A stretch of DNA of 41,664 nucleotides from a virus, in the IMG/VR virus record IMGVR_UViG_3300040809_000794, positions 1 through 41,664 of that record; one strand, 5' to 3'. Within the stretch, counting starts at the first letter, position 1, and the number at the start of each line of letters is the position of its first letter. The notes under the pieces are model-generated. The model searched no databases. It was not told the DNA's origin and was given only the letters and a program-made list of their open reading frames with translations. Made by a program: the position numbers and the translations under genes. This document shows positions 584 through 29,323 of this stretch, piece after piece.

Positions 584-604
584 GAGGCCCGCCAGGGCCG
601 ACCT
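582..604 (+). promoter_or_regulatory. hairpin downstream of the variable repeat
   Basis: GGCCC (586-590), loop GCCA, GGGCC (595-599), extended by AGG/CCT at 582-584 and 602-604 across a small internal loop. It lies 19 bases past the VR end. In known DGRs a GC-rich hairpin or cruciform with a 4-base loop just downstream of VR raises retrohoming efficiency; this one fits in place and loop size, though its uninterrupted stem is short. Confidence 0.55.
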
Positions 605-606
605 CT

Positions 607-1011
607 ATGACCAGCAAGCGAGCCTCTGCGGATCCCTCCAAGGAGGCTCATGGCCTCTACATGGTCGAGAAGTACGAGCGGGTGATCGACTACCTCTACC
701 CGCTCGCGCAGACGATCCCCCGCAAGCATGGCACCTTCCGAGAGCTGCTGATCCGGCAGCTCTTTCTGGTGGCCGAGCATCTCAACGACGCCATCAAGGC
801 CAACCAGCTCAGCCGTTGTTACGTGCTCGACGGCAGCCTGGGACAGCTCAGGTTGCTGCTGCGTTTCATGGTGCATCACAAGCGCAAGCTGATCACCGAA
901 CATCAGCTGGAGACCGCTCAGGCCCTGGTGGGTGAAGTGGGCTCCATGCTTGGCGGTTGGATTAAACGGCTGCAGGAACAGAAAAAAGGCGGCAAGCTAG
1001 AGCGGGCTTGA
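607..1011 (+). CDS. avd: DGR accessory variability determinant
   Basis: A 134-residue, mostly helical, basic protein. Avd proteins of DGRs are about this size, form a pentameric four-helix-bundle barrel and bind the reverse transcriptase and the template RNA to allow mutagenic cDNA synthesis. The pattern with an N-terminal EKYERVIDYLYPLAQTIPRK segment and a central helix containing RQLFLVAEHLNDAI matches the family. The ATG at 607 is preferred to the upstream TTG-type start because it falls just after the VR hairpin and the extra N-terminal stretch looks like a shadow of the target gene. The stop is 5 bases before the template repeat. Confidence 0.85.
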   Translation: MTSKRASADPSKEAHGLYMVEKYERVIDYLYPLAQTIPRKHGTFRELLIRQLFLVAEHLNDAIKANQLSRCYVLDGSLGQLRLLLRFMVHHKRKLITEHQLETAQALVGEVGSMLGGWIKRLQEQKKGGKLERA

Positions 1012-1016
1012 TGGGG

Positions 1017-1133
1017 GCGCCGTCCTCCTCGGGGGCAACTGGAACAACACGTCCAATTCCGGTTCACGTTGTGCTAACTGGAACAACACTCCCTGGAACT
1101 CCAACAACAACATTGGGGCGCGTTTTGCGGCCG
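1017..1133 (+). repeat. DGR template repeat (TR)
   Basis: Non-coding template matching VR 447-563. Read in the VR frame it carries a run of AAC/AAT codons (12 asparagine codons), the usual design that lets adenine mutagenesis reach many amino acids without stop codons. It holds 26 adenines, of which 16 differ in VR, while only 1 of the other 91 bases differs. It sits between avd and the reverse transcriptase. The region 1134-1288 between TR and RT has no gene I can support and probably forms the 3' spacer of the template RNA. Confidence 0.96.
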
Positions 1134-1288
1134 TGGCCACTGCCAAACACCACCACGCTCTGCTGTTTCTACGGGGCAGCAGGCCGGTGCCAACCAGGTG
1201 CCAGCCATCAAGTCCAGCTTCGGCGAACTCAGGGCCGAGTGGTGGCAATGGCAGGGAGTAGATCATCGAAACCTGCCGCTACCTTCTA

Positions 1289-2263
1289 ATGGGCAAGAAG
1301 TTTCGCAATCTCTACCAGCAGATCTACAGCTGGGACAACTTGCTTGCTGCCTACAGAGAAGCCAGGCGCGGCAAGAGTTATAGCAGTTCCTATCTGCGCT
1401 TCAAGGAGTATTACCTGGCCAACCTGCGCCATCTGCAGTTGCGTCTAATTGAAGGCGGTTGGCGTCCTGATCCGCAGCTGCAGTTCGACATCATCGACCC
1501 CAAGAAGCGCACGATCAGCTGCCAGAGCTTTCGTGATCGGGTGCTACACCACGCCTTGATCCAGGTGGTGGGGCCGATCCTGGACGCCGCGATGATGCCG
1601 CAGGTGTTTGCCTGCCGGGTGGGGCTGGGCACGCATCGGTGTGTCACCAGGATGCAGCAGCTGATGCGGCAGAACCCTGATGGCTGGGTGCTGCACGTGG
1701 ACTTCAGCAAGTTCTTTCCCACCATTCCCCAGGATCTACTGCTGGCCTACCTGGGCAAGAAGCTCACCTGCCGCCGCACGCTGCTGTTGATCGAGCAGGT
1801 GCTGAACGTGCAGGAGTGCGGCGTCCCCATCGGTGCGCTCACCAGCCAGACCTTCGCCAACTACTGGGGCGGCAAGCTGGATCGCTTCATTGCTGCCCGA
1901 GGCATCGGCAGCTTTGTGCGCTACATGGATGACGCTGCTGTCATCGTCCCGAGCAAGGCCCAGGGGCTGCAGCTGAAGGAGCAGATCTGCGCCTTTGTCG
2001 CCAGCGAGATGCACCAGCGCATCGGCAAGTGGAGCCTGGGCCCGGTGGAGCGCGGCCTGACCTTCTGCGGCTTCCGCATTAGGCGGAAGTTCAAGCTGGT
2101 GAAGCGTCAGTCGATGATCCGCCAGCGCAGGCGATTGAAGCTATTGCTCAAGCACGAGGATCACGAGGCCTGGCGTTGTTCGCAGATTGCCTGGATGGGG
2201 CATCTCCGCCATGGTGACGGACAGAATGGCCTTGTATCCCTCGGACTGGCAGCACCATGCTGA
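1289..2263 (+). CDS. DGR reverse transcriptase
   Basis: 324 residues. It shows the RT palm motifs: HVDFSKFF with catalytic Asp138, the domain-4 motif IGALTSQ at 181-187, and RYMDD with Asp214/Asp215. The IGxxxSQ form in place of the QGxxxSP of retroviral and group II intron RTs is diagnostic of DGR enzymes and is linked to low fidelity opposite template adenines. The protein copies the TR transcript into mutagenised cDNA that replaces VR. The ATG at 1289 follows an in-frame stop at 1259-1261 with no alternative ATG, GTG or TTG between. Its 3' end overlaps the next gene by 7 bases. Confidence 0.95.
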   Translation: MGKKFRNLYQQIYSWDNLLAAYREARRGKSYSSSYLRFKEYYLANLRHLQLRLIEGGWRPDPQLQFDIIDPKKRTISCQSFRDRVLHHALIQVVGPILDAAMMPQVFACRVGLGTHRCVTRMQQLMRQNPDGWVLHVDFSKFFPTIPQDLLLAYLGKKLTCRRTLLLIEQVLNVQECGVPIGALTSQTFANYWGGKLDRFIAARGIGSFVRYMDDAAVIVPSKAQGLQLKEQICAFVASEMHQRIGKWSLGPVERGLTFCGFRIRRKFKLVKRQSMIRQRRRLKLLLKHEDHEAWRCSQIAWMGHLRHGDGQNGLVSLGLAAPC

Positions 2264-11955: not shown

Positions 11956-12134
11956 TAGCGCACAAAGCCATCTTCAATAATCATCCCGCCCTCGCCACTG
12001 GGGTAGGGCGAGAAACGGGTGCCAGCTGGCAGCTCTGCTTTTTTTTCAGGCTGCTTGTCCGCCTGGAGTTCCACCTCCGGGCTGCCCTCCCCCTGTTGCA
12101 GGGGCACCCGGCTGCGGCGGCGCGATGAGTCCAT
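11955..12134 (-). CDS. small protein between portal and scaffold, function unknown
   Basis: 59 residues, beginning MDSSRRRSRVPLQQGEGS and ending GTRFSPYPSGEGGMIIEDGFV, largely polar and probably disordered. It overlaps the portal 3' end by 89 bases in another frame. An AAGGAG ribosome site lies 9 bases before the ATG at 12134, and its stop overlaps the scaffold start, which supports it as a real gene. It may be a head assembly accessory, by position only. Confidence 0.65.
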   Translation of the reverse strand: MDSSRRRSRVPLQQGEGSPEVELQADKQPEKKAELPAGTRFSPYPSGEGGMIIEDGFVR

Positions 12135-13656
12135 TGTCAACAGCTCCTTGTGTGAGTTGTTGCGCCAACTGTACCTGCTGTTGTTGTGCCATAGCAGCCT
12201 GCAATTCCTGTTCGGTTTTCACCAGGCCGTTGATGTCAATGCCATCCGACGCTGCATAGCGACGGATCAACTCAGATGGATTGATGTACTGCAGGAACTG
12301 CTCGGGGCCAATGCTTGCAGCGACAACCTGCAGGAAGTTGGTCAGCCGCTGCTTGTCGTTGCCGCGGCCAATGGCCTCCAATCCGGTCGTCACCTGGGGC
12401 TCCACCAGGCCCTCGGGCACAGGAGGCAGATCGCCCCGGCGTTCCATCATGTGCATCACCCGCCGAATCAACGGCAGCTGCAGCTCATTGCTGAGGATGC
12501 TGTAGACCCCGCCGAGGCCCTGCTCCAGCTGCTCAGCCATCAGGCGAATCTCCTCAGCAGTAACCCGCTCGGCGTCACGCTGCACTGCCTCGTTGGCCAG
12601 GAACGTGAAGTTGAGCCGGCGTTCAATCAACTGCATCGTCTGTAATGCAGTAGCAAAGTCATTCGCCTTCTGCACTTGCAGGAACTCAACGTCGGCTGCA
12701 TTGCCAGCAACGATCGCTCCGTTCTCTGCCCTGGCCAACACGTCAGCTCTGGTCGTCCCATTCGGGTTGACCAGGCCAATGGCCTTAGCCGCAATCAAAC
12801 TGCCTTGCACAATCGCCTTGCTCAGGCTCTCCAGGCTTTGCAGGTCTCCCAGCACGTCCTCCACCAGGCTGCGCCCATAGCTCTCACCGGCAATGCGGTG
12901 CAGCCGCAACGGGATCCAAGGGCTGGTGGCCAGCCGACTGAAGCCAGTGCTACCGGGGATCTTCTTCCCGTCGTACTCCTGGAACCACTCAACCTGGTTC
13001 CCCTCGGCCCGAGGGTCGATCGTGACGTGGGTGTACAGATCCTCCACGTCCCTGTCGTCCCCCTCTTCCGCCTTTGCTTCTGCTCCCTCGGGCAGGTGGC
13101 GGTGGGACACGTTCTCCCGGATCACGATCTCAGTGACGTTCCCCTCTGGGTCGCGGTCAACGCAGAAGGACCGCAGGCCGTACATGCGGATGGCATCCTC
13201 CCCGATGTAGAGCAAGGCGTTGCCGCCAACAAGCAAGTGCTTGATGGCTTCAAACAGGGCAGGCCTGGCTTGCAGCTGGTCCATGCGCTGCAGGATCTGT
13301 CGCTCCATGGAGGACAGGCCGACGTCAAGGTCGGTCGCTAGCTGCTCGGGGTCGGCTCCCGTTCTCTCCACGTAGCTGTCCAGCTCGCCCTTGTCGAGAA
13401 CCAGGCGGAAGAAGGGCTGGCTCGGCGGGTACAAAGCGAGGAGCAGCTTGGCGCTGAGGCTGCTTACACCACGGGCGCCGGCCCCCTGGTACAGGCCGTT
13501 GAGCTTGTTGAACTGTTGTCCTGTGTCACCGAAATGCTGATCCGATTCAGGGATCAACGTCGGGATGGTCAGGGCCGAGCAGTCGATAGCCCGGCGCAGG
13601 TACTGGCTGCGAAACAGTTCAAGATCACGCCAGCGCGATTGAGCAGTGTCCTTCAT
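12046..13656 (-). CDS. head-tail connector / portal protein (gp8-like)
   Basis: 536 residues, matching T7 gp8 (536). Family-type segments include SRWRDLELFRSQYLRRAIDCSALTIP near the N-terminus, FNKLNGLYQGAGARGVSSLSAKLLLALYPP, and RDAERVTAEEIRLMAEQLEQ in the C-terminal half. It forms the dodecameric ring for DNA packaging and tail attachment. The C-terminus is a Gly/Pro/Gln-rich tail overlapping the next gene. The start overlaps the upstream structural gene by a few bases. Confidence 0.94.
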   Translation of the reverse strand: MKDTAQSRWRDLELFRSQYLRRAIDCSALTIPTLIPESDQHFGDTGQQFNKLNGLYQGAGARGVSSLSAKLLLALYPPSQPFFRLVLDKGELDSYVERTGADPEQLATDLDVGLSSMERQILQRMDQLQARPALFEAIKHLLVGGNALLYIGEDAIRMYGLRSFCVDRDPEGNVTEIVIRENVSHRHLPEGAEAKAEEGDDRDVEDLYTHVTIDPRAEGNQVEWFQEYDGKKIPGSTGFSRLATSPWIPLRLHRIAGESYGRSLVEDVLGDLQSLESLSKAIVQGSLIAAKAIGLVNPNGTTRADVLARAENGAIVAGNAADVEFLQVQKANDFATALQTMQLIERRLNFTFLANEAVQRDAERVTAEEIRLMAEQLEQGLGGVYSILSNELQLPLIRRVMHMMERRGDLPPVPEGLVEPQVTTGLEAIGRGNDKQRLTNFLQVVAASIGPEQFLQYINPSELIRRYAASDGIDINGLVKTEQELQAAMAQQQQVQLAQQLTQGAVDNGLIAPPQPGAPATGGGQPGGGTPGGQAA

Positions 13657-14603: not shown

Positions 14604-14778
14604 TGACGAGCCCCCTGAGGAAACGGATAACTGATCTCTGCCCTGCAGCGTACCGAATCTGGTCTAATGAGTCAGTCAATTCAGGGGTACGCTCGGGAAA
14701 CAACTGATCAAGTGCATCCAGCACTTCATCAGTAAGCTGATGTGCGATCACTCGCTTCAGTGTGTCGGGGGATTCCAT
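14596..14778 (-). CDS. small conserved cyanophage protein, function unknown
   Basis: 60 residues beginning MESPDTLKRVIAHQLTDEVL and containing AGQRSVIRFLRGLV. I recognise similar short proteins in cyanophages between exonuclease and head genes. The ATG at 14778 is preferred over an in-frame start 27 bases upstream; it overlaps the exonuclease 3' end by 22 bases. Helical; role unknown. Confidence 0.7.
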   Translation of the reverse strand: MESPDTLKRVIAHQLTDEVLDALDQLFPERTPELTDSLDQIRYAAGQRSVIRFLRGLVNG

Positions 14779-15593
14779 AGTTGAACTTGGTGGGTGTCGA
14801 AGCAATACTCATCACGCCGCAAGATCCTTACTAGCCTTGCCTGCTGCGTTGCGAACGTGGATGCGTTGTATAGATCAAGTTTCTTCTTCCTCTGTGCCTC
14901 CTCATACGTCCGAACAATCGCTTCCCAGCAATCCACAGGTCGTCCGAGGTCAAGCTTTTCGACGATCCTCTTGGCTCCGACCTCCCCAATGCCAGGACAG
15001 CCGGGGATGCCATCGGTCGAGTCGCCCTGTAGGTATTGCCGATAAGTGAATCTCTCGGAGTAATCAACCGTTGCTGTCTTGATGACTGAATCTGCTGCAT
15101 AGTCAATCGTCAGTCCCTCCTCGGGCTCAGGGTCTTTGGTTGTTGCGGTCCAGATGTGGCGCCCAGGGATCTGCAGCAGGTCCTTGTCACCGCTTGCGAT
15201 CACGTACTCCTCTCCATCCTGCAGCATCTGCGTGGCCAGGATCCCGATCAGATCATCGGCTTCAATCCTGGAGTACATGAACGCCAGGTCTTCGGTCAGC
15301 AGCTCTGAGCGCAACGGCTTGTAGCCAATCGGCTTTGGCTTGCCCTTCCTGTTGTGCTTGTACTCCGGGAAGATGTCGCGCCTAAAAGCACTGGCGTCCG
15401 TGAAGCAGTGCACAACGTCTGCCATTCGGCAGCCGTAGAACTCAACCCAGGTGGCCAGCTGGTTCCAGTAGTGCTCTCGTGCGGCAGGCAGCTCGCTGTG
15501 CCGGGTCCACACGTCTTCATCCAGCTGCACCTCTACCTCTGTGGCCGAGGTTGCCGCGAACAGCAGCATGTCAGCATCAAGCAAGATCTTCAT
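14757..15593 (-). CDS. 5'-3' exonuclease, FEN/T7 gp6 family
   Basis: 278 residues. Acidic metal ligands are visible: Asp6 (KILLDADML), Glu111/Asp113/Asp114 (IEADDLIG), Asp136/Asp138 (SGDKDLLQ), Asp191/Asp194 (GDSTDG). A helix-3-turn-helix DNA-binding motif follows (IPGCPGIGEVGAKRI). In T7, gp6 removes RNA primers and degrades host DNA. The start at 15593 (MKILLDAD) is preferred to an upstream in-frame start because the family begins there, and it overlaps the zinc-ribbon gene stop. In T7 relatives DNA polymerase precedes this gene; here only small genes do. Confidence 0.93.
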   Translation of the reverse strand: MKILLDADMLLFAATSATEVEVQLDEDVWTRHSELPAAREHYWNQLATWVEFYGCRMADVVHCFTDASAFRRDIFPEYKHNRKGKPKPIGYKPLRSELLTEDLAFMYSRIEADDLIGILATQMLQDGEEYVIASGDKDLLQIPGRHIWTATTKDPEPEEGLTIDYAADSVIKTATVDYSERFTYRQYLQGDSTDGIPGCPGIGEVGAKRIVEKLDLGRPVDCWEAIVRTYEEAQRKKKLDLYNASTFATQQARLVRILRRDEYCFDTHQVQLWNPPTH

Positions 15594-15802
15594 GCTGCCT
15601 CCACAACAGGTACGCGCCCGCGCCAAGCCACCCTGTCAATGATCTGCTCGCTGGGCTGCACGGTATAGAACCGATGCCCGCAGAACTCGCAATGTCGGCG
15701 GCGCACGATGTTTGCTTGAGCCTTGTCTCTAGCGGTTGTCACCACTTGTGTGATCAGCGCGTTGCACTCAGGGCACGGGGGCCCCTTCATGTTGATTGCC
15801 AT
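15590..15802 (-). CDS. NrdR-like zinc-ribbon protein
   Basis: 70 residues with four cysteines in two pairs (CPEC near residue 10, CEFC near 38) separated by a basic stretch IVRRRHCEFCGHRF, the layout of the NrdR N-terminal zinc ribbon without its ATP-cone domain. Host NrdR represses ribonucleotide reductase genes, but a 70-residue zinc ribbon alone could serve any DNA- or protein-binding role. Coupled to the exonuclease start. Confidence 0.7.
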   Translation of the reverse strand: MAINMKGPPCPECNALITQVVTTARDKAQANIVRRRHCEFCGHRFYTVQPSEQIIDRVAWRGRVPVVEAA

Positions 15803-15830
15803 TTCGGTTTGCGTTAGTTGATCGGACTTG

Positions 15831-16025
15831 TCAGCCCTGATAGAGCTTGTCGATGTATTGCCACACGGGATCTCCCTCGGGGACTCCCCTGTTGATCAGC
15901 CAGTCGCACAAGCTCTGGATGTCATAGAACGCAGCAGACGCGCCCTGGTAGCCAGCGACGTAAAGGTCGCTGCCATGTCCTCTGCAGATGTGCTGCACCA
16001 CCAGACGGCCCCTACCTCTTACCAT
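15831..16025 (-). CDS. small protein of the replication cluster, function unknown
   Basis: 64 residues beginning MVRGRGRLVVQHICRGHGSD and ending VWQYIDKLYQG. The ATG at 16025 overlaps the 3' end of the next upstream gene. A longer frame back to 16205 exists but its extra part overlaps a better coding frame. No family recognised. Confidence 0.6.
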   Translation of the reverse strand: MVRGRGRLVVQHICRGHGSDLYVAGYQGASAAFYDIQSLCDWLINRGVPEGDPVWQYIDKLYQG

Positions 16026-16152
16026 TGGCCGCGTCGCGGAGCCGCTCGGCGACCCCTCGAATGGCCAAAGCAACAATGTCGGTGCCTTTTTCTTTCGCCT
16101 GATCCGACCAGAGAGCCACTTCATCAGCGATGACGTGAAGGGCAGCCGCCAT
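16012..16152 (-). CDS. small helical protein of the replication cluster, function unknown
   Basis: 46 residues from the ATG at 16152 (MAAALHVIADEVALWSDQ) through IVALAIRGVAERLRDAANGK. The same frame remains open upstream; a TTG at 16191 would add LLDSRYTVGDSHR, which also looks coding, so the true start may be there. Amphipathic helices; no motif. One of several tightly packed overlapping genes occupying the place where T7 relatives have DNA polymerase. Confidence 0.55.
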   Translation of the reverse strand: MAAALHVIADEVALWSDQAKEKGTDIVALAIRGVAERLRDAANGKR

Positions 16153-16201
16153 GCGATGGCTATCGCCAACGGTGTAGCGAGAATCAAGCAACCAATAAGC
16201 A

Positions 16202-16375
16202 TCATTGCACCTCTGAGCTAAGGGGAAAGTCTCTGGCGAGATCACGGACGGATGCGATGGCGCATCCGTATCCGTTCCAGAAGGCTTCGGAATAGGTGAA
16301 GAGGATTGACTCTTTCTCATAGCGATCAGCTGTGCGATTGAAATTGGTTACTGCAGTGCGATACAGCGTGTTCAG
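16202..16375 (-). CDS. candidate 57-residue protein with CTG start
   Basis: The frame reads LNTLYRTAVTNFNRTADRY... and ends SSEVQ. An ATG exists at 16564, but using it would overlap the upstream gene by nearly 200 bases with a shadow-like sequence. The CTG at 16375-16373 overlaps the upstream TGA as CTGA, the same arrangement as the candidate at 3196. The start is therefore inferred. Function unknown. Confidence 0.45.
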   Translation of the reverse strand: MNTLYRTAVTNFNRTADRYEKESILFTYSEAFWNGYGCAIASVRDLARDFPLSSEVQ

Positions 16376-16656
16376 GCAGCTGCCTTTGACCCGGTAGAAC
16401 TTCTCCGGCGCGAGGTCGCAGCCTGGTCTGCTCGTCCAATGACAGTCACCTTCACTGGGTCCGGGTACTTCGCTTCGGCAAAGCGCTTCGCCGCAGTCTT
16501 GTTTGGAGCCTTGATCAGCTCCGTCATTGGGCGAGCTGCTTGGAATTGCACTTGGATCTTCCATAGGGGATCACGGGGGTTGTCGGAGTAGGTGATGCCA
16601 GGCTCAGAGCGAGTGCTCTTATGCTCTGGGTTGAAGGCAAACTTTTCAGATTTCAT
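16372..16656 (-). CDS. small protein after primase-helicase, function unknown
   Basis: 94 residues beginning MKSEKFAFNPEHKSTRSEPG, with a central segment WKIQVQFQAARPMTELIKAP and a basic Ser/Arg/Ala tail. The segment TELIKAPNKTAAKRFAEAKYP suggests a small alpha/beta fold. It overlaps the primase-helicase 3' end by 11 bases, so it is translated with it. No family recognised. Confidence 0.65.
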   Translation of the reverse strand: MKSEKFAFNPEHKSTRSEPGITYSDNPRDPLWKIQVQFQAARPMTELIKAPNKTAAKRFAEAKYPDPVKVTVIGRADQAATSRRRSSTGSKAAA

Positions 16657-18289
16657 GGAAGCGACAGCTGGGTAGGTAGTGCAGCTTTGACATCAAGCCC
16701 AACTCTCCCTTGACTCGGTTCTTCTTCAGCCAGCAGTAGGTGGTGTTGGCCTCAATGGTGTCGTTGCTACGCGGGTTACGTTGCAGCATCACAACAAAGT
16801 CAGGGATTTGAGCTAGGGAATGAGATCCTCGTAGTTCGGCAAGCGTGGGCTCACCCCCTTCTTCGTGCGCCGGCCCAATGCCAGAGCGCGAAAGGTGGCA
16901 GACGACCACCATGGTGAAGTTGAGCTCCACGCAGAGCGTCTTGAGGTCTTTGATGCAGCGATCAATAGCGCGCCGCTGATCAGTAGCAAGGGCAATGCCA
17001 TCTGCAAGAAGCGAGAAGTGGTCAAGAACAACAACTTTGCATTCCTCCCCGAGGACGTAATGTTTAACGGTGGCAACAAATTGGTCAAAGTCATCACTGC
17101 CAAACTTGTCCAGAAGGAAGAGGTGTTTGCCGAAGGAATCAAGAGCTTCCTTGATCTGTGAAGGATCTCGTCTGGCCCTGGCCTCCTCGTCGTCCAGGTG
17201 AAAGGCCGGGTTGAGTCCCAGCTCTTCAGAGAGCATGCGCTCCAGGCTGGTTTCGCAGCTCTCCTCCAGGCCGATGTAGGCCGTGTTGATCCCTGCTTTG
17301 CACAGGTTCAACGCGATGCTGCGGGTGAACAGCGACTTGCCGATCCCCGTGCCACCGCTGACCATGATCAGCTGGCCTGGCTTCATGCCCTCGGTCATCC
17401 GGTTCCAGCCTGCCCAGGGGTAGGGCAGGCCAAAGCGGTGCTCTGGTTTGAGCACCTTCTCCAGGAGCTCCGGGGCATGAACGATTGCGTCTGGCCGGTG
17501 GCGACGCGCGTTGTTGATGGCCTCCAGGATGGCGTTGTGGTCATCGGCCATCCACGCTTCGTTGGCGTCCTTGTAGGCAAGGGCTCCAGCGATAGCAGCA
17601 GAAGGGCCGATAAGTGCAGCCAGATCAGCAGCAGCCTTCCGACCGGGTTCGTCATTGTCCATGAACAAAACCACCCGCTTGAAACCAAGGATCCAAGCCA
17701 GTTGTTCAGTGGCTGCTTTCTTGGCGCTCTGGGCTCCATCAGGGATTGAAGCAACGACGAACTTGGTCTTGTGGCGGTGCTGATACAGGCAGTCGTAAAC
17801 CGACAACGCATCAATCTCCCCCTCCGTGAGAATGAGGGTGCCATCAGTACCAAGGTGCTGGCCAAACAGCTGCACCTTGATGCCCTTGGCCCTGCCGATC
17901 CAGGCAAACTGTTTGCTGCCGTAGCGGATGTGCTGAGCAACAGTCAGTCCGTTCTCGTCTCGGTAGTTGGCGACCTGGGCAGACTCGCCGCGGTATTTGC
18001 CGGTGGCGTAGTCGTAGAGCTTGCAAGCTCTGGCGCTGATCTTGCGCGATGGGATGCCGGGGTAGTCGCTGCAGGGGAGCAGGGACTGCTTGGCAGCAGG
18101 CTTGTCTGTCTTCGGCATGAGGCCGAGCAGAGCGCTGGCCTTCTTGTTCATCCAGGGCCTCCCGTCTGAGGTGTACCGCTGTTGGCAGACGAAGCAGTAA
18201 ACAGACCCGTCTGGGTATTCGGTTGCTCCGTCGCTGCTTTCGCATTCCGGGCCGGGGCACGGTATGTGAGTCGTGTTCCGTTGAGCCAT
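16646..18289 (-). CDS. primase-helicase, T7 gp4-like
   Basis: 547 residues, close to T7 gp4 (566). A four-cysteine zinc motif (Cys11, Cys16, Cys32, Cys35), Toprim catalytic residues (Glu156 in ILTEGEIDAL; Asp211/Asp213 in LFMDNDEPGRK), and a RecA-like helicase domain with Walker A GGTGIGKS at 312-319 and a Walker B-like VVVLDHFSLL near 410. It unwinds DNA and lays primers at the fork. T7 gp4 normally works with gp5 polymerase; no gp5 homologue is visible here, so a host polymerase may be the partner. Its 5' end overlaps endonuclease I by 142 bases. Confidence 0.95.
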   Translation of the reverse strand: MAQRNTTHIPCPGPECESSDGATEYPDGSVYCFVCQQRYTSDGRPWMNKKASALLGLMPKTDKPAAKQSLLPCSDYPGIPSRKISARACKLYDYATGKYRGESAQVANYRDENGLTVAQHIRYGSKQFAWIGRAKGIKVQLFGQHLGTDGTLILTEGEIDALSVYDCLYQHRHKTKFVVASIPDGAQSAKKAATEQLAWILGFKRVVLFMDNDEPGRKAAADLAALIGPSAAIAGALAYKDANEAWMADDHNAILEAINNARRHRPDAIVHAPELLEKVLKPEHRFGLPYPWAGWNRMTEGMKPGQLIMVSGGTGIGKSLFTRSIALNLCKAGINTAYIGLEESCETSLERMLSEELGLNPAFHLDDEEARARRDPSQIKEALDSFGKHLFLLDKFGSDDFDQFVATVKHYVLGEECKVVVLDHFSLLADGIALATDQRRAIDRCIKDLKTLCVELNFTMVVVCHLSRSGIGPAHEEGGEPTLAELRGSHSLAQIPDFVVMLQRNPRSNDTIEANTTYCWLKKNRVKGELGLMSKLHYLPSCRFHEI

Positions 18290-18678
18290 TGCGCCATGAA
18301 CTCAGGTGGGATGGGGATAGGGCACCAAGCAATGCCATGCTTGTCACACCATTGCGCGTATGTGGTCTTGCTGTTCTTGTTCAACGTCATGTTGGGACGT
18401 TGCAGAGCAACAAAGATCTTGAGGCCTGGGTTGTTGACTATCACTGCAAGGAACTTTGTGCGTTCTGCAGGTGGCCACCAGCCCTTCACCTCGACGTACA
18501 CATCACCCACCTTGAAGTCAGGGGTGTACTTGCGGTGGAGAACGTAAGGGAACTTTTCGGTCTCGTAGAGAGGGGTGAGCCCCTGAGCAAGCAGGGACTC
18601 TTCCACCTGAGTCTCCAGTTGTGATCGGTGTTCCCGGTCCTTGCGGCTCCGCAGGCGCCGGTTGTACCGATCAAGCAT
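18148..18678 (-). CDS. endonuclease I (T7 gp3-like Holliday junction resolvase)
   Basis: 176 residues from the ATG at 18678, which overlaps the SSB stop (ATGCTTGA). Catalytic residues of the PD-(D/E)xK fold are visible: Asp54 in YTPDF, then Glu63 and Lys65 in VEVKG, with an upstream Glu in the QLETQVEESL helix. The family resolves branched DNA and degrades host DNA. The C-terminal about 45 residues (from near APARNAKAATEQ) are low-complexity, extend past the T7 protein and run in another frame over the start of the primase-helicase gene. An in-frame start further upstream exists but would overlap SSB deeply. Confidence 0.9.
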   Translation of the reverse strand: MLDRYNRRLRSRKDREHRSQLETQVEESLLAQGLTPLYETEKFPYVLHRKYTPDFKVGDVYVEVKGWWPPAERTKFLAVIVNNPGLKIFVALQRPNMTLNKNSKTTYAQWCDKHGIAWCPIPIPPEFMAQWLNGTRLTYRAPARNAKAATEQPNTQTGLFTASSANSGTPQTGGPG

Positions 18679-19279
18679 CGCCAGCCAGCAGGCCAGCAAT
18701 CTCGTCAGCTTCGCTCTCCTCGGCAACCCAGCCGCCCTCGATCGGGGCCAGCTGCACTTCCTCAGGCTGCTTCAGCTCGTTGATCTGGAAGCCGATGAGC
18801 TGCATCTGCACGCCCTTGGCGGCAGTCATGTTGTACACGTAGAGGTCGTAGACGGCCTTGCCAGTGGTGCCGCCACCGATGCGGCCGATGGAGCCAGGGT
18901 TCACCAGCCGGCCAGTGGAGTCGTAGATCTTGGGGGGATCGTTGCGCTCGATCTCGCCAGTGCGGAGGGTGCGGCTGGCGTTGCGCTTCATCTTGAAGAG
19001 CAGCTCCCCATCAACCGGAACCTTCTCGCCGGTCTGCTCGTCCTTGGTCATGGACGGCTGGAAGGGCATGTTGAGCTTGCTGTTGTCCTTGGGGAAGCGC
19101 AGGTCGCGCTGTCGGGCCTCAGTCAGAGCGGTCTCGATGTTGGCGAAGATCTCTTCGCACTCCTCCTCCTTGAGGACCAGGCCGAGGTGCCACTCGGTCT
19201 TGCCGTTGTTGTCGTTGACGCGAGGAGTGGTCAGAGCGCCGAAAGCAATGCGGCCGATGGGTGTAACGAAACGGGGCAC
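18671..19279 (-). CDS. single-stranded DNA-binding protein (gp2.5-like)
   Basis: 202 residues. N-terminal VTPIGRIAFGALTTPRVNDN and the later YDLYVYNMTAAKGVQMQLIGFQI fit T7 gp2.5-type OB-fold proteins, with an acidic C-terminus (EESEADEIAGLLAGDA) as needed to contact replication partners. It sits between RNA polymerase and endonuclease I, the T7 order. A sigma70-like promoter overlapping the dispersed TTGACACC motif lies 75-100 bases upstream. Confidence 0.9.
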   Translation of the reverse strand: MPRFVTPIGRIAFGALTTPRVNDNNGKTEWHLGLVLKEEECEEIFANIETALTEARQRDLRFPKDNSKLNMPFQPSMTKDEQTGEKVPVDGELLFKMKRNASRTLRTGEIERNDPPKIYDSTGRLVNPGSIGRIGGGTTGKAVYDLYVYNMTAAKGVQMQLIGFQINELKQPEEVQLAPIEGGWVAEESEADEIAGLLAGDA

Positions 19280-19353: not shown

Positions 19354-19382
19354 ATGATAGAGCTTTGTTGAATGGTGTCAAG
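19354..19382 (-). promoter_or_regulatory. putative promoter with TTGACACC motif upstream of SSB
   Basis: Minus strand CTTGACACCATTCAAC (19382-19367) with TTGACA as -35 (19381-19376), a 16-base spacer and TATCAT as -10 (19359-19354). The RNA polymerase stop codon is embedded in the motif. This would separate SSB and downstream genes from the RNA polymerase transcript. Confidence 0.6.
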
Positions 19383-21762
19383 TAAAGAGGAAGGGGTTTT
19401 CGCCGATCGAGCCCCTGTCCAGCGTCCCAACAAGTGGCGGCGCAGGAACCTCCCGGCCCAGCACCGTTTCAACAACGCCCTGGTGCCGAGTCAGCCAGTC
19501 CACCGAATAGAAACGGTGCCACTGATCGTTCAGCTCACGTCGCATCGTCCCGACATGCTGCAGCGTGGTCCCAAAGCAGTCGTGCACCGTCGCAATCGGA
19601 TGATCAAACGCCTTCCAGTGCGCAACGAAGCGCTGCAAGAACGCTGCATCCATGCTGTGAATGAAGTCAGGCACAAGCTTCTTGCTTGACCTGGCCTTGT
19701 CTGGCTTCTGGCCTGTCGCATCCCTCACGCAGACGCTGATCGTGGTCTTGGCCAGGTCAAGCTTCACGCTGCGCTTCTCGGTTTCGCTGCACCAGGACTC
19801 CACCGCCAGACCATTCGGGGTGAACCAGTAGGGCCTGCTGCCCGCCTCGATCTGCATCGCAGCAAGGTGCCCCAGCCACTTGGCCAGGTCCTTCGCATGA
19901 GGCACCGCCTCATTGACAACATCGTTAATGGCGCTTGCCAACACGTTTGCCAACTCAACCACCCTCAGGTTGTCCTCAACCAGAAAGTCCTTCACCTCAT
20001 CACGCAGGTACTCCTTGATGCCATCGCTCAGGCTCATGTACGTCCTGCCGTAGATCACAGGCATCAGGGCCTTCTTCCACAAGGACCGCGGGATCTTGTG
20101 CTTCCTCCACCAGGCGAGGCAACGCAGCTCGCTCTCCCGCTTGTCGTCAGCCGTCAGGTTCTCGTTGAGCCACTTGATCCGGGCCTCCACCACCCGGCCC
20201 AGGCCGGTGTACAGGTCGGCTGGCTGGCTGCCCACCACGTTGGTAAACCGGGCCAGCTGGCCGTCCCCAGTCAGGCAAGCAACGTGGCCCCAGCCGCTGC
20301 AGGTCTGATCACGCCAGTGGATCGTGCCGCTGGTGTAGCCAGGGTCCTGCAGGTAGCCATGCCAGTCCCTGCAGAGCTGAACCAGGCGCCACGGTGACTT
20401 GGCCTCGATCCAATACCCCTTGTTGTCGAGCGGCTCCGCTCCGACCTTGGCCACCACGGTGCTCATGGTTTCCAGGTACTTCACCCGCTCATGCGGATCC
20501 GGGGCCGTGCCCAGGGCCTCGCCCAGGCTCCACGCGAACTGGGCTTCATGGCCTTTGATCGGCGACTGCTCCTTGAAGCTGATCAATGAGCGAATGTGGT
20601 CCGGGCCCTGTACGTTGAGCTGGCTGCCGCGGGGATACACCCGGCCGCGGTGATCCATGAAGTGGACCCAGTGCAGCTGCTCCGCCAGCTCCAGGCGCTG
20701 CAGGCTGATGGTGGCGTGCACCATGCGGGTGCGATCAACGTCTCGCCGCTTGGAGGCCTTGTAGGCAAACAGCTGCGGCCAGTAGTCAGGGTTGCCCTTC
20801 TCCTCGCTGGGCGGCTCGGCCCGACGCTGACTGGGTAGGCTGCCGATCTGATGGCCCAGGTTCCAGACGGCCTCAACCAGGGACTGCTGGGCGTGGTCGA
20901 TCTGAAAGGCCTGCTCCTGCAGGTGGTTCACGCTGTCCACCACGCAGGTCTTAGCCCGGCGGATCAACTGCGGCCAGCGCTCCCAATCCACCGTTGAGAG
21001 GCCGGTGCGGATCGTCAGGTAGCCGCCGTCATCAAACCGGGTCCAGGGCAGCGGTGCCGTCACCATCGGCATGTGGATGGGCCGGAACACGGCCGCGGCC
21101 TCCTTCCACCGGGCCAGAAAGGACCAGTAGAGACTGGTGAAGCTGACCATGCGGGCCTTCCGGTTGCGGGCCAGCACCTTGGTCTCGATGCTGATCATCT
21201 TGGTGCTCAGCGCCAGGATCTCCAGGAACAGGCCGCCCAGGGCGGTGCGTTCGGCATGGCTGAGCGGCCTGTACTCCTCGCCGCCGTGCTTGCGCAAGCG
21301 TTGAGCAACCCAACGCATGCCCAGATCACAATTGTTGGCCAGGCGAAGCCCTTCCAGGTGGTAGCTGCGCCGCCAGCGCGGATGTTGCAGGAAGAGGACG
21401 TACTCAGCTCGCTGGCCGAGGCTGGTGGCCAGCTGGTTGAAGGGACGGGTGCTGTCGTTGCTGCCGAGCACGTAGCAGAGCGACTCCAGGGCAACGTGCT
21501 CCACGGCCTTGCGGCCGGGCATCAACGCCCAAATGTGCGCTCCTGGGCCGGGAATGTGGCGAGCCTTTTCCCACTGCTTGATGACTTGATCAACGTAGAA
21601 AGTTGCCAGCCTTTGCGACAACGTGCCGGTCGCACCTTTCTCCCAGTTTCTACTTAAGGCTCGCTCTCGGCCGGTCTCTCGTTGCCAGATTTCAAGCTGC
21701 GTTTGCTCCTCCGAGGAGCCTTCAGGCGGGTGCTTGACAGCGTTTGACTGTTGATTGGTCAT
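19378..21762 (-). CDS. single-subunit DNA-dependent RNA polymerase, T7 family
   Basis: 794 residues (T7: 883). Active-site residues line up with T7: Asp485 in RDQTCSGWGH (T7 Asp537), Lys563 and Tyr571 in KKALMPVIYG (T7 Lys631 and Tyr639), and His727/Asp728 in TVHDCFGT (T7 His811/Asp812). RGRVYPRGSQLNVQGPDH is also conserved. It should transcribe the phage's middle and late genes from phage-specific promoters; the dispersed motif described below is one candidate. It lies downstream of the integrase, as in lysogeny-capable marine podoviruses. Confidence 0.96.
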   Translation of the reverse strand: MTNQQSNAVKHPPEGSSEEQTQLEIWQRETGRERALSRNWEKGATGTLSQRLATFYVDQVIKQWEKARHIPGPGAHIWALMPGRKAVEHVALESLCYVLGSNDSTRPFNQLATSLGQRAEYVLFLQHPRWRRSYHLEGLRLANNCDLGMRWVAQRLRKHGGEEYRPLSHAERTALGGLFLEILALSTKMISIETKVLARNRKARMVSFTSLYWSFLARWKEAAAVFRPIHMPMVTAPLPWTRFDDGGYLTIRTGLSTVDWERWPQLIRRAKTCVVDSVNHLQEQAFQIDHAQQSLVEAVWNLGHQIGSLPSQRRAEPPSEEKGNPDYWPQLFAYKASKRRDVDRTRMVHATISLQRLELAEQLHWVHFMDHRGRVYPRGSQLNVQGPDHIRSLISFKEQSPIKGHEAQFAWSLGEALGTAPDPHERVKYLETMSTVVAKVGAEPLDNKGYWIEAKSPWRLVQLCRDWHGYLQDPGYTSGTIHWRDQTCSGWGHVACLTGDGQLARFTNVVGSQPADLYTGLGRVVEARIKWLNENLTADDKRESELRCLAWWRKHKIPRSLWKKALMPVIYGRTYMSLSDGIKEYLRDEVKDFLVEDNLRVVELANVLASAINDVVNEAVPHAKDLAKWLGHLAAMQIEAGSRPYWFTPNGLAVESWCSETEKRSVKLDLAKTTISVCVRDATGQKPDKARSSKKLVPDFIHSMDAAFLQRFVAHWKAFDHPIATVHDCFGTTLQHVGTMRRELNDQWHRFYSVDWLTRHQGVVETVLGREVPAPPLVGTLDRGSIGENPFLFT

Positions 21763-21819: not shown

Positions 21820-21825
21820 CTTGCT

Positions 21826-21868
21826 ACGGATTATGAGTCCGCTGCATTCACCAGATTGCTAGACCCCC
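21826..21868 (-). other. half-tRNA-like sequence with CAT anticodon loop, candidate attP core
   Basis: On the minus strand the 43 bases can be laid out as the 5' half of a tRNA: GGGGGTC as acceptor strand, TA, a D-arm with GG and AA in its loop, then anticodon stem GCGGA, loop CTCATAA and stem TCCGT. The loop has the canonical C32, U33, A37 and A38. No T-arm follows, so it is not a gene. Tyrosine integrases often use anticodon stem-loops of tRNA genes as att cores, and the integrase gene ends 73 bases away. Confidence 0.55.
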
Positions 21869-21884
21869 AGAGGGTTTTCAGCCG

Positions 21885-21930: not shown

Positions 21931-21946
21931 CTAGACACCGTTCAAC
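21931..21946 (+). promoter_or_regulatory. dispersed TTGACACC-type motif at the integrase 3' end
   Basis: CTAGACACCGTTCAAC, two differences from the exact form. The integrase stop codon lies inside it. It points against the integrase gene, unlike the copies upstream of operons. Confidence 0.5.
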
Positions 21947-22955
21947 ATTCCACCAGGGCCTCCAGGTTGATACCGGCTGCATGGATGTAGCGCTGGGTGA
22001 CCGCCAGGCTCTTGTGGCCAGCCCATTGCTGGATGGCCGGAGCCTGCCAGCCCTTGCGGGCCAGCTCCGTGATGCAAGTGTGGCGCAGCGTGTGGATGAC
22101 CCATTCGCGGCGCGTTGTATCACCAAGTTGTAGAGCATCGCAAGCTGCATGCTTGGCGTCACTGTAGTGCAGAAGGTAGGTGCCATAGCAAGTTGGAAAC
22201 ACATCCTTAGCGCCGCGTTGTTTCATGGCCTTGAGGATGCGGACCATCTCCTCATTCAATGGCAACGTCCGGGGCATGTTGCCCTTGGTCTTTACGAACT
22301 GGATTCGCCGAGAACCCAGGTCCACACGGTCCCAGGTCAGGTCTAGGGCCTCTCCAACCCGGCAGCCCATCTGCCGCAGGAACAGCGTCAGAGCCAGCGA
22401 CAATCGCTGCTCTCGTTGCTCCAGTCGATCGAGCATCGCCGCAAACCAGTCCTCACGCAGCACCAGGTCGCGGGGCTCCGGGAGCTGCAGCGTCCGCTTC
22501 TCAGGCATCAGCGGCATGGCCTCGATCCAGCCCAGCCGGCAAGCCCGCTTGAGCATCACGCTGGCCGCGTTGAGATACTTCCTGATCGTGGTGTTGCTCA
22601 GGCCGCGGCCTCTCAGCTCCACCACCAGGTCATCAAGGGCTCGCATCGTTAGCTGCGATGGATGGGCGTCTGGCCCCAGCAGCCGGGCCAATCGGCAGGC
22701 GTTCTCCCACTGACTGGGGTCCTTGCCGGCCCAATCCAAACCTTCACAAATGTCTACAAGGTGGCCCAGCGTCTGGCCTCCCTCGGCGCTGCGGCGCCAC
22801 TCCAACCGCTGTCGCTCCTCCACCACGCCAGCCTTGGCCGCGGCCTCCCAGGCCTCAGCCTCCTCCCTGGTGGCGAAGTACCGGCTCTTGCGGCCGTCTG
22901 GCGTGGTGACACCAGCAAACCAGCGATTGCGGTCACTGCGGAATCGAACTGCCAT
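21942..22955 (-). CDS. int: tyrosine recombinase / integrase
   Basis: 337 residues. Catalytic residues are all visible: Arg199 (GCRVGEALDL), Lys224, His288 and Arg291 (HTLRHTCITEL), His314 (WAGHKSL) and Tyr323 (TQRYIH). The N-terminal part (WFAGVTTPDGRKSRYFATREEAEAW) is an arm-binding type domain, followed by a SAM-like core-binding region. It would insert the phage genome at a host att site, probably a tRNA gene. The gene overlaps the MarR-like gene upstream by 23 bases, so the two are co-expressed. Confidence 0.95.
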   Translation of the reverse strand: MAVRFRSDRNRWFAGVTTPDGRKSRYFATREEAEAWEAAAKAGVVEERQRLEWRRSAEGGQTLGHLVDICEGLDWAGKDPSQWENACRLARLLGPDAHPSQLTMRALDDLVVELRGRGLSNTTIRKYLNAASVMLKRACRLGWIEAMPLMPEKRTLQLPEPRDLVLREDWFAAMLDRLEQREQRLSLALTLFLRQMGCRVGEALDLTWDRVDLGSRRIQFVKTKGNMPRTLPLNEEMVRILKAMKQRGAKDVFPTCYGTYLLHYSDAKHAACDALQLGDTTRREWVIHTLRHTCITELARKGWQAPAIQQWAGHKSLAVTQRYIHAAGINLEALVEC

Positions 22956-23283
22956 AGGTCAAGTGCTCCAATGTTTGTACAAAGTTGCGTCCTTTTGGTG
23001 TGATGAACACCTGAAGAACTCTGTCGTCATCAGGGTTCCTGCGAGTTTCAATCCAATCAAGCTTGGCGCTTGATCTATTGTCTCGGCGCCCACTTGTGCC
23101 GAGAACGTCAACAGCGCGGGAGATGGCAGAAAGAGTCAAGTCTGTCTCGTCTGCGATCTCTGTTTGCGTCATGCCAGGCCTGGAATAGACCAAGAGGAGC
23201 AATTCCAGCTGCGAGACCCTCAGCTGAGGGTGCATGCCCCTGGCCAGCCGCAGGGCAGCCAAGAGGTCTCTGATGTTTCGCAT
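22933..23283 (-). CDS. MarR-like winged-helix regulator
   Basis: 116 residues: a helix (LLAALRLARGMHPQLRVSQLELLLLVYS), then GMTQTEIADETDLTLSAISRAVDVL as the recognition helix-turn-helix, and a wing segment with RRNPDDDRVLQVFITPKGR. This is the MarR layout, including the DxR wing motif. It overlaps the integrase gene and lies directly upstream, so it is a candidate lysis-lysogeny switch or integrase regulator. A perfect palindrome about 60 bases upstream of its start is a likely operator. Confidence 0.85.
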   Translation of the reverse strand: MRNIRDLLAALRLARGMHPQLRVSQLELLLLVYSRPGMTQTEIADETDLTLSAISRAVDVLGTSGRRDNRSSAKLDWIETRRNPDDDRVLQVFITPKGRNFVQTLEHLTYGSSIPQ

Positions 23284-24245: not shown

Positions 24246-24980
24246 TCAGATGTGCAGGCCGCGGATGAGAACCGGCATCAGCAGGAGCTCAAGTTCTGGC
24301 TCGCTGCAGTGCTGACCGATGCGCGGCTCATAGCTGCAGGCCATCACAAAAGGATTGGAGGCTGCATTGCCCTGCATCCGCGTCACACCGTTGTGCGACA
24401 GCTTCTCAACCACTGCGCACCACTCTTTGAGATAGCGAGCGTTGAATCCCCAGGCCTTGCCGGGTTCGTTGCTGTAACGCTCTGGCCAGAGCTGATTCAG
24501 GTTCGGATAGGTGCCGACCTTGCCGCAGTCGGCTGCAGTGTGAACTGAGAAGTGGCCGGCAAGGTTGACCGATGAAAGCTCGCCCAGAGCTTCCTTGCGG
24601 CCACCGTGAAACACTGCGCGCATCTCATCGGTGACGGTCAGCAGCTTGCCGTAGGACACAGCTTTCTTCAGAGGCTTTGCATGCAGGAGAAGGCCTTGCT
24701 CCGGGACGCGCCAGAGCGTCGGCATGCCGTCAGGCGTGAAGCAGGGCAGCCGGTAGCGAAAGGCGCGGTGGCCGTCTGTTGATTCGATCTGCAGCACGTC
24801 ACCATCACTCCAGACGTGCACGAACTGCAGGAGTTGCTTGGCCTCATCGGTGGAGGCGAACTGCGCAGCGGCCCACACTGGCCAGTAGGGCAGGACTGCA
24901 GTGCAGCTGGGTTCGGTCTGGGCGATAACCAGAGCCTGCAGCTGTTCGGCGCTGGCGTTGATCAGATCAGTGGTTGCCAT
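24246..24980 (-). CDS. DNA polymerase III beta (sliding clamp)-like protein
   Basis: 244 residues from the ATG at 24980. Pieces match the DnaN pattern in order: DGDVLQIESTDGHRAFRYRL (as the clamp's ...TDGHRLA strand), GTYPNLNQLWPE (as GxFPDYxxxxP), WGFNARYLKEWCAVVEKL (as FNxxYLxDAL), and a C-terminal LLLMPVLI (as YLIMPVRL). It is shorter than bacterial DnaN (about 370-390), as phage clamp-like proteins often are. It may load on or mimic the host clamp to recruit host Pol III, which would fit the absence of a phage DNA polymerase. Family assignment is by eye. Confidence 0.6.
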   Translation of the reverse strand: MATTDLINASAEQLQALVIAQTEPSCTAVLPYWPVWAAAQFASTDEAKQLLQFVHVWSDGDVLQIESTDGHRAFRYRLPCFTPDGMPTLWRVPEQGLLLHAKPLKKAVSYGKLLTVTDEMRAVFHGGRKEALGELSSVNLAGHFSVHTAADCGKVGTYPNLNQLWPERYSNEPGKAWGFNARYLKEWCAVVEKLSHNGVTRMQGNAASNPFVMACSYEPRIGQHCSEPELELLLMPVLIRGLHI

Positions 24981-25020
24981 GGTTTGGGATTGCAAGGTGT
25001 GCGTTCAGGGAGCCAGGAGA

Positions 25021-27472: not shown

Positions 27473-27608
27473 GCTGCTGGCTAGGGCTGGGATCCCGGAG
27501 AGTCCTGGGTATCAGGAGCTGCTGGAGAAGATCAGGGAGGAGCGGTTGCAGCAGACTGTTGACACCGTTCAACAGGGCAAGAAGAAGAGGAGGCGCAAGA
27601 AGAGGTGA
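27459..27608 (+). CDS. small basic protein before the large terminase
   Basis: 49 residues from the TTG at 27459, with AAGGAG 10 bases upstream. It reads NWTELLARAGIPESPGYQEL and ends in a run of lysine and arginine (GKKKRRRKKR). Its stop overlaps the terminase GTG as GTGA. It might bind DNA or assist packaging; the recognised small terminase subunit is elsewhere (30925-31167). The dispersed motif at 27558 lies inside it. Confidence 0.6.
   Translation: MNWTELLARAGIPESPGYQELLEKIREERLQQTVDTVQQGKKKRRRKKR
27558..27573 (+). promoter_or_regulatory. GTTGA-N6-TCAAC motif upstream of the large terminase
   Basis: GTTGACACCGTTCAAC, exact inverted half-sites, 31 bases before the terminase start and in the direction of transcription. 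It also encodes VDTVQ in the overlapping small gene. Confidence 0.6.
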
Positions 27609-29323
27609 CAACAGCAATCCCATTGGGTCAGTTCATCACGTTGTTGATGCGTGAGTTGAACATGGCGGAAGCGCCAACGCCAGTCCAACTTCAGATTTGC
27701 GACTACTTAGAAGTTGGGCCGAAGCGCAGGGTGATTGCAGCGTTTCGTGGGTGCGGCAAGTCAACGCTCAGTGCGATGTACTTGTTGTGGAAGTTGTATC
27801 ACGATCCTGATGAGAAGTGCTTGATCATCAGTGCGTCGATGTCCAGGTCGGAGGCGATGACGGCCTGGATGTTGCAGACGATCGGGAGGGTGCCGTGGTT
27901 GCGTCACATGCAGCCGGACAGCCATGACGGCAGGTACAGCCGTATCAACTTTGACGTTGGCACCTGTCGTCACATCGAACAGAGCCCGAGTGTCCGCGCT
28001 GCGGGAATCACGGGGCAGATCACGGGTAGCCGGGCTAGCACGATCCTGGTGGATGACTGCGAGACGCCACAGACGTGCTTGACACAGGTGCAACGGGAGA
28101 AGTTGCGGAACAGCTTGAACGAGTTGGAAGCGATCCTGAAGCCGGGCGAGGGCCCGGAGATCGTGTACCTGGGGACGCCACACAGCAGCACTGACAGCAT
28201 TTACTTCGCGTTGAAGCGTGAGCTGTCGTATGACATGCGGATGTGGCCGGCCAGGGTGCCAAGTGATGTCACCCCCTACATGGGGACGCTGGCGCCGTTG
28301 ATCAGCCAGCGGGTTGGCCAGGCCAATGGCCGCCCCACGGACACGCGCTTCAGTGATGAGGAGCTGCTGCAGCGGGAATTGTCCATGTCCCCCATGCAAT
28401 GGAAGCTGCAGTTTCTGTTGGATGCAACGCTTTCTGACATTGAGCGGTATCCGTTGCGTTGCGGTGACCTGATGGTGATGATGCTGGATCAGCACTTGCC
28501 GGAGGTTGTGACCTACGACAAGTCGAAATACCTAGCGCTGGATGATCTGCCGTGCGTTGGCATGGCGCATGACCCGAGGTTCTACCGGCCGGCTCAGGTG
28601 GACGGCACCATTGCAGTGGAGGAGGTGCCCACGGTCATGGCCCTGGACCCGTCCGGGGGAGGGGCTGACGAGTTCGCCTGGGCGGTGGTCAAGGCATGGG
28701 GTGGCAACTACTACCTGATGGAGTCAGGTGGCGCTCTGGGGGGCGTTGGCGAGAGCTTGTGGATGAAGCTGGCCACGTTGGCCAAGAAGCACCACGTCAA
28801 CGAGATCCTGGTGGAGACGAACTTTGGTGGCCTGGAGGTCTACTCCCAGTTGCTAAAACCCTTCCTCGTGAAGGTTGGAGCGCAGTGCCGGGTGGAACCG
28901 ATCCGGTCGAACCAGCGGAAGGAGCTGCGGATCATCGACACCCTGGCTCCGGTGCTGCAGACCCACCGGATGGTGGTTGATCGACGTGTGGTTGAGGCCG
29001 ATGGCGAGATGCTGAAGGCCGCGGCCGATGACCGCTCGGCCAGCTACAGCGTCTTCTACCAGCTCACCCGGCTGACGCATGATCGCGGCAGCTTGTTGCA
29101 CGATGACCGCTTGGATGCCTGGGCGATGTGCATCCAGTGGTTCCAGCAGCAGGCTGCACAAGACCAACGCACGCAGCAACAGGCACGCCTCCAGGAGCTC
29201 CTAGAAGCTGAGGTGGCTGACTTCCGCGGCCGTGTGCTCATGACGGCCGATCGCGCTGCCATGGGCATGTCCCTGGAGCAGGCACGCATGGCGGACGCTG
29301 GCGGCGCTCACAGCTGGATTTAG
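27605..29323 (+). CDS. terL: terminase large subunit (T7 gp19-like)
   Basis: 572 residues (T7 gp19: 586). Walker A at 48-54 (RGCGKST), Walker B near 147-153 (ILVDDCE), then the RNase H-like nuclease with Asp348 (ALDPSGGGADEFAW), Glu404 (ILVETNFGG) and a C-terminal HDDRLDAWAM. It drives DNA into the procapsid and cuts concatemers. The GTG start overlaps the upstream stop (GTGA). Confidence 0.96.
   Translation: MTTAIPLGQFITLLMRELNMAEAPTPVQLQICDYLEVGPKRRVIAAFRGCGKSTLSAMYLLWKLYHDPDEKCLIISASMSRSEAMTAWMLQTIGRVPWLRHMQPDSHDGRYSRINFDVGTCRHIEQSPSVRAAGITGQITGSRASTILVDDCETPQTCLTQVQREKLRNSLNELEAILKPGEGPEIVYLGTPHSSTDSIYFALKRELSYDMRMWPARVPSDVTPYMGTLAPLISQRVGQANGRPTDTRFSDEELLQRELSMSPMQWKLQFLLDATLSDIERYPLRCGDLMVMMLDQHLPEVVTYDKSKYLALDDLPCVGMAHDPRFYRPAQVDGTIAVEEVPTVMALDPSGGGADEFAWAVVKAWGGNYYLMESGGALGGVGESLWMKLATLAKKHHVNEILVETNFGGLEVYSQLLKPFLVKVGAQCRVEPIRSNQRKELRIIDTLAPVLQTHRMVVDRRVVEADGEMLKAAADDRSASYSVFYQLTRLTHDRGSLLHDDRLDAWAMCIQWFQQQAAQDQRTQQQARLQELLEAEVADFRGRVLMTADRAAMGMSLEQARMADAGGAHSWI

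Follow-up and report, generated by a model that had tools for sequence, protein, structure and literature searches.

A near-complete Krakvirus-like phage genome lacks a DNA polymerase gene and probably relies on a host enzyme

Among replisomes, that of T7 is the textbook example of a minimal one, and the gene for its DNA polymerase, gp5, has served as a marker of T7-like phages. Here we describe a T7-like genome that lacks it, the virus record IMGVR_UViG_3300040809_000794 from IMG/VR (41,664 bases with no run of N; this whole stretch is hereafter called the window). The original prediction made for this DNA started from the view that T7 relatives normally have gp5, which is true in general but not universal, as Cai et al. 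isolated 18 cyanopodoviruses of the marine MPP-C group without a DNA polymerase gene (PMC9860041). For these phages, the authors proposed that DNA synthesis falls to Pol I or Pol III of the host or to an enzyme that has diverged strongly. Like the window, MPP-C genomes (the P-SCSP1 group and P-SCSP2) are T7-like and retain gp4 and gp6; unlike it, they fall into a separate clade in a tree of structural genes. Their size is 37.3-37.9 kb, compared with ~41.9 kb for the window, and their host is Prochlorococcus.

A second group, S-SRP02 and its relatives (MW822601; PMC8790148; AP013548), shares with the window a temperate-type T7-like layout, an integrase, a homologous beta-clamp-like gene, and the absence of gp5. 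In contrast to the window, these phages also lack gp4, with no DnaB_C helicase (records L102, L104, L132, L144, L145, and L148), and carry a RusA resolvase in place of endonuclease I. In S-SRP02 itself, we searched for both DNA_pol_A and DnaB_C and found no match. The tree in the S-SRP02 paper was built on a 246-aa 'DNA polymerase I' (PMC8790148). This protein (L145, 22389-23129) is a gp6-like 5'-3' exonuclease without a polymerase domain, and the same is true of the identically labelled protein of AP013546 (L149, 20750-21481). Such mislabels stem from the match between gp6 and the part of PolA that forms its 5' nuclease domain.

The described genome most similar to the window is that of Krakvirus S39C11 (uncultured phage MedDCM-OCT-S39-C11, AP013549). 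Both have an integrase, RNA polymerase (RNAP), single-stranded DNA-binding protein (SSB), endonuclease I, primase, and exonuclease but no gp5, and in both, the opposite strand bears the genes for terminase and internal virion proteins; their gp4 and terL products are 53% and 71% identical, respectively. Unlike the window, AP013549 is marine and contains neither the clamp gene nor the reverse transcriptase of a diversity-generating retroelement (DGR). It is a declared complete genome, and its record makes no remark on the missing polymerase. No paper that names Krakvirus came up in a search covering a portion of the literature, and the available parts of PMC9860041 hold no discussion of this clade.

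A tree of portal, capsid, tail tube B, and terL placed the window in a clade of nine genomes together with Krakvirus S39C11, with a support of 100 in the Shimodaira-Hasegawa-like approximate likelihood ratio test (SH-aLRT). Thus, polymerase-less T7-like phages, already known from MPP-C, also exist in a clade of their own that includes Krakvirus S39C11. A tree uniting all polymerase-less genomes in one clade was rejected by the approximately unbiased test (p-AU 0.011), which means that gp5 was lost at least twice or that its history is more complex. Uniting only the Krakvirus-like and S-SRP02-like genomes was not rejected (p-AU 0.567). A second polymerase-less clade, distinct from MPP-C and capable of carrying an integrase gene, makes gp5 loss a recurrent event, and surveys based on the polymerase gene miss such phages.

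Six-frame searches of the window with the profiles DNA_pol_A (family A), DNA_pol_B (family B), and DNA_pol3_alpha (family C) gave no match, which bears out the original prediction for family A and extends it to the other two. Pfam scans of every open reading frame (ORF) longer than ~300 aa, together with 41 further ORFs that are shorter or antisense (three of them long antisense frames), detected no DNA polymerase family; the only polymerases that they found in the window were the single-subunit RNAP and the DGR reverse transcriptase. The same family A search matched all five ordinary T7-like phages used as positive controls (S-TIP37, S-SRP01, T7, Pasto, and HTVC119P), even though gp5 of S-TIP37 and S-SRP01 is encoded by split genes. 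This indicates that the search is sensitive enough. Comparison with relatives revealed the same absence of family A in 20 of them (AP013549 included) and in a further relative, G052, and family B had no match in the 18 polymerase-less records searched.

The position at which gp5 would be expected is occupied by other genes. As had been noted from the sequence, SSB, endonuclease I, primase-helicase, and exonuclease follow one another in T7 order, which profile matches on the - strand now confirm, and between the last two there are indeed only small ORFs of 70-124 aa. This interval measures 1.0 kb in the window. Among the records in which it is covered (one circular record was left out), it spans 0-1.5 kb in all polymerase-less ones versus 1.8-4.2 kb in 12 polymerase-bearing phages, and in the relatives of the window with this stretch covered it measures 0.2-1.5 kb and always lacks gp5. 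One of the small genes, next to the exonuclease, codes for an NrdR-like zinc ribbon; S-SRP02-like phages have similar zinc-ribbon genes within their replication module.

The window covers nearly the whole genome of a T7-like phage. Both of its ends fall in one gene, the target gene of the DGR, and the junction is spanned in G052 (= L178, 41,441 bp), which is syntenic with the window along its full length and has the same layout. The last bases of the window align to position 4448 of G052 and the first bases align from position 4669, so ~220 bp are missing. The implied full length of ~41.9 kb matches that of G005 (41,906 bp), G010 (41,897 bp), and AP013549 (41,987 bp); the ends of G005 and G010 overlap by 25 and 24 bp, respectively. 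The unsequenced gap in which a polymerase might have been hidden is therefore a contig break of ~220 bp within one gene and leaves no room for one. The lack of a DNA polymerase gene in the window is real and not an assembly artefact.

What remains of the replication module is intact. In an alignment with 14 homologues, the primase-helicase retains its zinc-binding Cys, Toprim, and Walker motifs. The gp6-type exonuclease is homologous to the 5' nuclease domain of Pol I and has no polymerase domain; NCBIfam PolA matches it only across the N-terminal nuclease domain. Ratios of nonsynonymous to synonymous substitution rates (dN/dS) against relatives were ~0.15-0.23 for the primase, 0.27-0.32 for the exonuclease, and 0.13 for the clamp-like gene. 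Such purifying selection indicates that the remaining module is in use.

The two proteins that in T7-like phages carry docking tips for gp5 have lost them in the window. Its SSB ends in ...EADEIAGLLAGDA, without the terminal Phe of polymerase-bearing T7-like phages, and its primase-helicase ends in ...CRFHEI (stop codon checked), whereas T7 gp4 has an acidic tail with a final Phe. A Phe tail on gp4 is absent across the whole window clade save for G018 with its gp4 terminus AAF, which is not acidic.

A broader comparison of SSB tips, in which many rows are near-copies, separated three groups. An acidic/polar-F tip, as defined by our script's rule, was present in 35 of 36 records with both gp5 and gp4 (one of the 35, L317, has an odd tail and hardly counts). 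No terminal F was found in 36 of 40 records with gp4 but without gp5, the window clade among them. Where neither gene is present, the SSB ends in PF after acidic residues (32 of 33 records; genes in L261-L297 and others). G028 and AP547 depart from this pattern, having gp4 and yet an SSB ending in PF. The D/E-rich xPF tips of phages without gp4 and gp5, which in S-SRP02-like phages are of the EEIPF type and unlike the window's, resemble the bacterial SSB C-terminal tip (SSB-Ct) DDDIPF, which binds Pol III chi, DnaG, and PriA (PMC5872125).

The original prediction also pointed to a clamp-like gene at 24246-24980 as a reason to suppose that the phage uses host Pol III. The ORF in fact runs from a TTG start at 24995 to 24246, and 24980 is an inner ATG. 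Its product corresponds to domains II-III of bacterial DnaN and carries a TDGHR motif and a C-terminal LLMPV. TDGHR and an MP motif at the C-terminus are common to it and DnaN, and their profiles show weak colinear similarity across domains II-III; the window protein has 249 aa and these two domains only, whereas DnaN has ~370 aa and three. A profile search of the PDB returned mostly beta clamps (best E 3.9e-4), and hhalign against DnaN gave E 7e-6 with a probability of 84, both below cut-offs. NCBIfam dnaN was the best match of the homologues (best E 3.9e-7, compared with 0.063 for the window copy; all below curated cut-offs), and the protein matches PHROG 947. A structure model built from only 5 sequences had a pLDDT (predicted local distance difference test score) of 32. 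Judging by its motifs and profile matches, the product of 24246-24995 appears to be a remote two-domain relative of beta clamps.

The clamp gene is present in two of nine near-complete genomes of the clade (the window and G015) and missing from AP013549, G005, G010, G012, G013, G018, and G052, while gp5 is absent from all nine. The window copy and that of G023 share 72% identity, whereas the terL, RNAP, and portal of the two phages reach just 28-44%, which means that the clamp moves horizontally; S-SRP02-like phages share it with the window clade in this way. Its patchy presence and its mobility led us to reject the clamp as the cause of gp5 loss: it is not what made the polymerase dispensable. 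The gene is often found in phages that have neither gp4 nor gp5, and a homologue (52% identity) lies on a 16-kb contig (G030, L121) together with a family A polymerase of ~605 aa; no T7-like genes were detected on that contig. The clamp may be a dispensable aid that some members have acquired by horizontal transfer, perhaps to serve the host polymerase as a clamp of phage origin. The earlier suggestion of host Pol III use thus stands as far as a host polymerase is concerned, and its reliance on the clamp is weak.

We consider it highly probable that the window phage, a potentially temperate member of the Krakvirus-like clade, has lost gp5 and relies on a host DNA polymerase, more likely Pol III than Pol I. 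In this scheme, the phage gp4-type helicase-primase would open and prime the fork, the gp2.5-type SSB would coat single strands, and gp6 and endonuclease I would process the DNA. Synthesis itself would be carried out by the host enzyme, probably the Pol III holoenzyme rather than Pol I. Supply of the polymerase by the host is a workable arrangement, since MPP-C isolates grow although they lack such a gene (PMC9860041).

The same data allow us to sketch, tentatively and with somewhat less than even chances, a stepwise dismantling of the T7 replisome in aquatic phages. According to it, gp5 would be lost first (the window clade, AP546, and AP547) and gp4 later (S-SRP02-like phages). In adopting the host replisome, the phages would have exchanged the SSB Phe tip that docks gp5/gp4 for one copied from the bacterial SSB-Ct (EEIPF/DDMPF) and taken up a mobile two-domain beta clamp. 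The window clade, with its tipless SSB, would then be an intermediate. This pattern of SSB tips and clamps opens direct and inexpensive ways to test by what means a host polymerase is captured.

Several observations weigh against host Pol III use or the role given to the tips. On a tree of the SSB core, the association between tip and polymerase reduces to 1-2 independent changes, which makes it a lead for which no significance can be claimed. MPP-C phages are polymerase-less although their SSBs, unlike that of the window, retain EF/DF tips, and L303-L305 carry a polymerase yet have the SSB tip LPF. The gp4 of AP546, AP547, and G028 is still Phe-ended although these records have no polymerase; the reverse is seen in HTVC119P and HTVC200P, and a Phe-ended gp4 was therefore rejected as a strict indicator of gp5. 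As the window SSB lacks a tip of the host type, Pol III would have to be recruited by another route, and the beta-clamp-binding pentapeptide QL(S/D)LF was not found in the replication proteins of the window. Finally, two large window proteins, of 952 aa (31261-34119) and 1058 aa (34095-37271), have no significant family match.

The strongest competing explanation is that host Pol I, rather than Pol III, works behind gp4 in the place of gp5, with phage gp6 providing the 5' nuclease. Pol I and gp5 belong to the same family, the retained gp6 is the counterpart of the Pol I nuclease domain, and Pol I is among the enzymes proposed for MPP-C (PMC9860041). The loss of both the gp4 and gp2.5 tips, however, speaks against a simple like-for-like swap, and relatives further along have dropped gp4 and bear clamps and host-SSB-like tips, which points to the host replisome. 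We therefore regard the use of Pol I as unlikely, though by no means negligible.

The second explanation, a phage polymerase too divergent to recognise, would have to involve proteins such as the 952-aa and 1058-aa ones mentioned above. Their want of a family match would fit, but they sit among genes for internal virion proteins and tail fibres, a place kept in relatives; AP013549 has an annotated LysM protein at the corresponding position, and neither protein appears to contain palm motifs. This makes a hidden polymerase improbable. An assembly artefact is scarcely credible: the contig is linear and free of end repeats, which would fit a missing segment, but the spanning relative G052 reduces that segment to part of a DGR target gene, and relatives of the expected length, among them the declared-complete AP013549, lack the polymerase as well. 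Replication by the RNAP or the DGR reverse transcriptase, both template-dependent polymerases, is very improbable, since the RNAP retains the Tyr equivalent to Tyr639, by which T7 RNAP selects ribonucleotides, and most polymerase-less relatives have no reverse transcriptase.

In general, the window combines the structural and transcriptional genes of Autographiviridae with a replication module devoid of their gp5-type DNA polymerase. A single-subunit RNAP is present, and T7-type portal, capsid, tail tubes, and terminase were all detected. The - strand carries, in T7 order, RNAP, SSB, endonuclease I, primase-helicase, exonuclease, portal, scaffold, capsid, and tail tubes. Terminase, internal virion, and fibre genes lie on the + strand in a block that is inverted relative to T7 (Table 1).

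Table 1. Coordinates of annotated features in the window
Feature	Position	Strand	Evidence or remark
DGR	41212-41664 and 2-2263		target gene split across contig ends
DGR variable repeat	~447-566
bAvd-like accessory gene of DGR	499-1011
DGR template repeat	~1017-1137
DGR reverse transcriptase	1289-2263
Portal (head-tail connector)	12046-13656	-	Pfam Head-tail_con 4.5e-84
gp6-type 5'-3' exonuclease, 278 aa	14757-15593	-	Pfam 5_3_exonuc_N/5_3_exonuc; PHROG 107
NrdR-like zinc ribbon	15590-15802	-	Pfam; adjoins exonuclease
Interval where T7 relatives carry gp5	15590-16656	-	small ORFs only: 94, 120, 124, 70 aa
T7 gp4-type primase-helicase, 547 aa	16646-18289	-	Pfam Helic-prim_T7_N, Toprim_2, DnaB_C
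Endonuclease I (gp3)	18148-18726	-	Pfam Phage_endo_I 1.6e-21
gp2.5-type SSB	18671-19279	-	PHROG 112
Single-subunit RNAP	19378-21762	-	Pfam RNA_pol 5.9e-46; PHROG 414 1.6e-111
Tyrosine integrase	21942-22955	-	Pfam Phage_integrase 4.3e-24
MarR-like regulator, upstream of integrase	22933-23283	-	Pfam MarR among homologues; kept in relatives
Beta-clamp-like protein, 249 aa	24246-24995	-	profile searches
T7-type terminase large subunit	27605-29323	+	Pfam Terminase-T7_RNaseH-like 1.6e-30

The integrase gene suggests a temperate potential of the phage. Between this gene and that of the RNAP, at ~21825-21870 on the - strand, there is a segment resembling part of a tRNA with a CAT anticodon, which is kept in several relatives and is likely to be the attachment site attP.

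A scan for hosts yielded only a relative with 51% identity in a contig of a planctomycete metagenome-assembled genome, which may be a contamination. The genes shared with S-SRP02-like phages (the clamp and the reverse transcriptase), together with the freshwater Synechococcus host of S-SRP02, suggest a freshwater picocyanobacterium as the host.

In the RNAP, alignment showed that the catalytic Asp, Lys, and Tyr positions are kept. Both the window clade and S-SRP02-like phages have Gln-Thr after the catalytic Asp (DQT), while polymerase-bearing phages and MPP-C have DGS/DAT/DGT-type sequences; DQT is a possible shared marker of the two lineages.

In the DGR, mismatches between the repeats are almost all at template A. 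Its reverse transcriptase is 89.5% identical to that of G043, an S-SRP02-like phage, while identities between the other genes of G043 and those of the window are 26-47%. This indicates that the DGR cassette moves between lineages.

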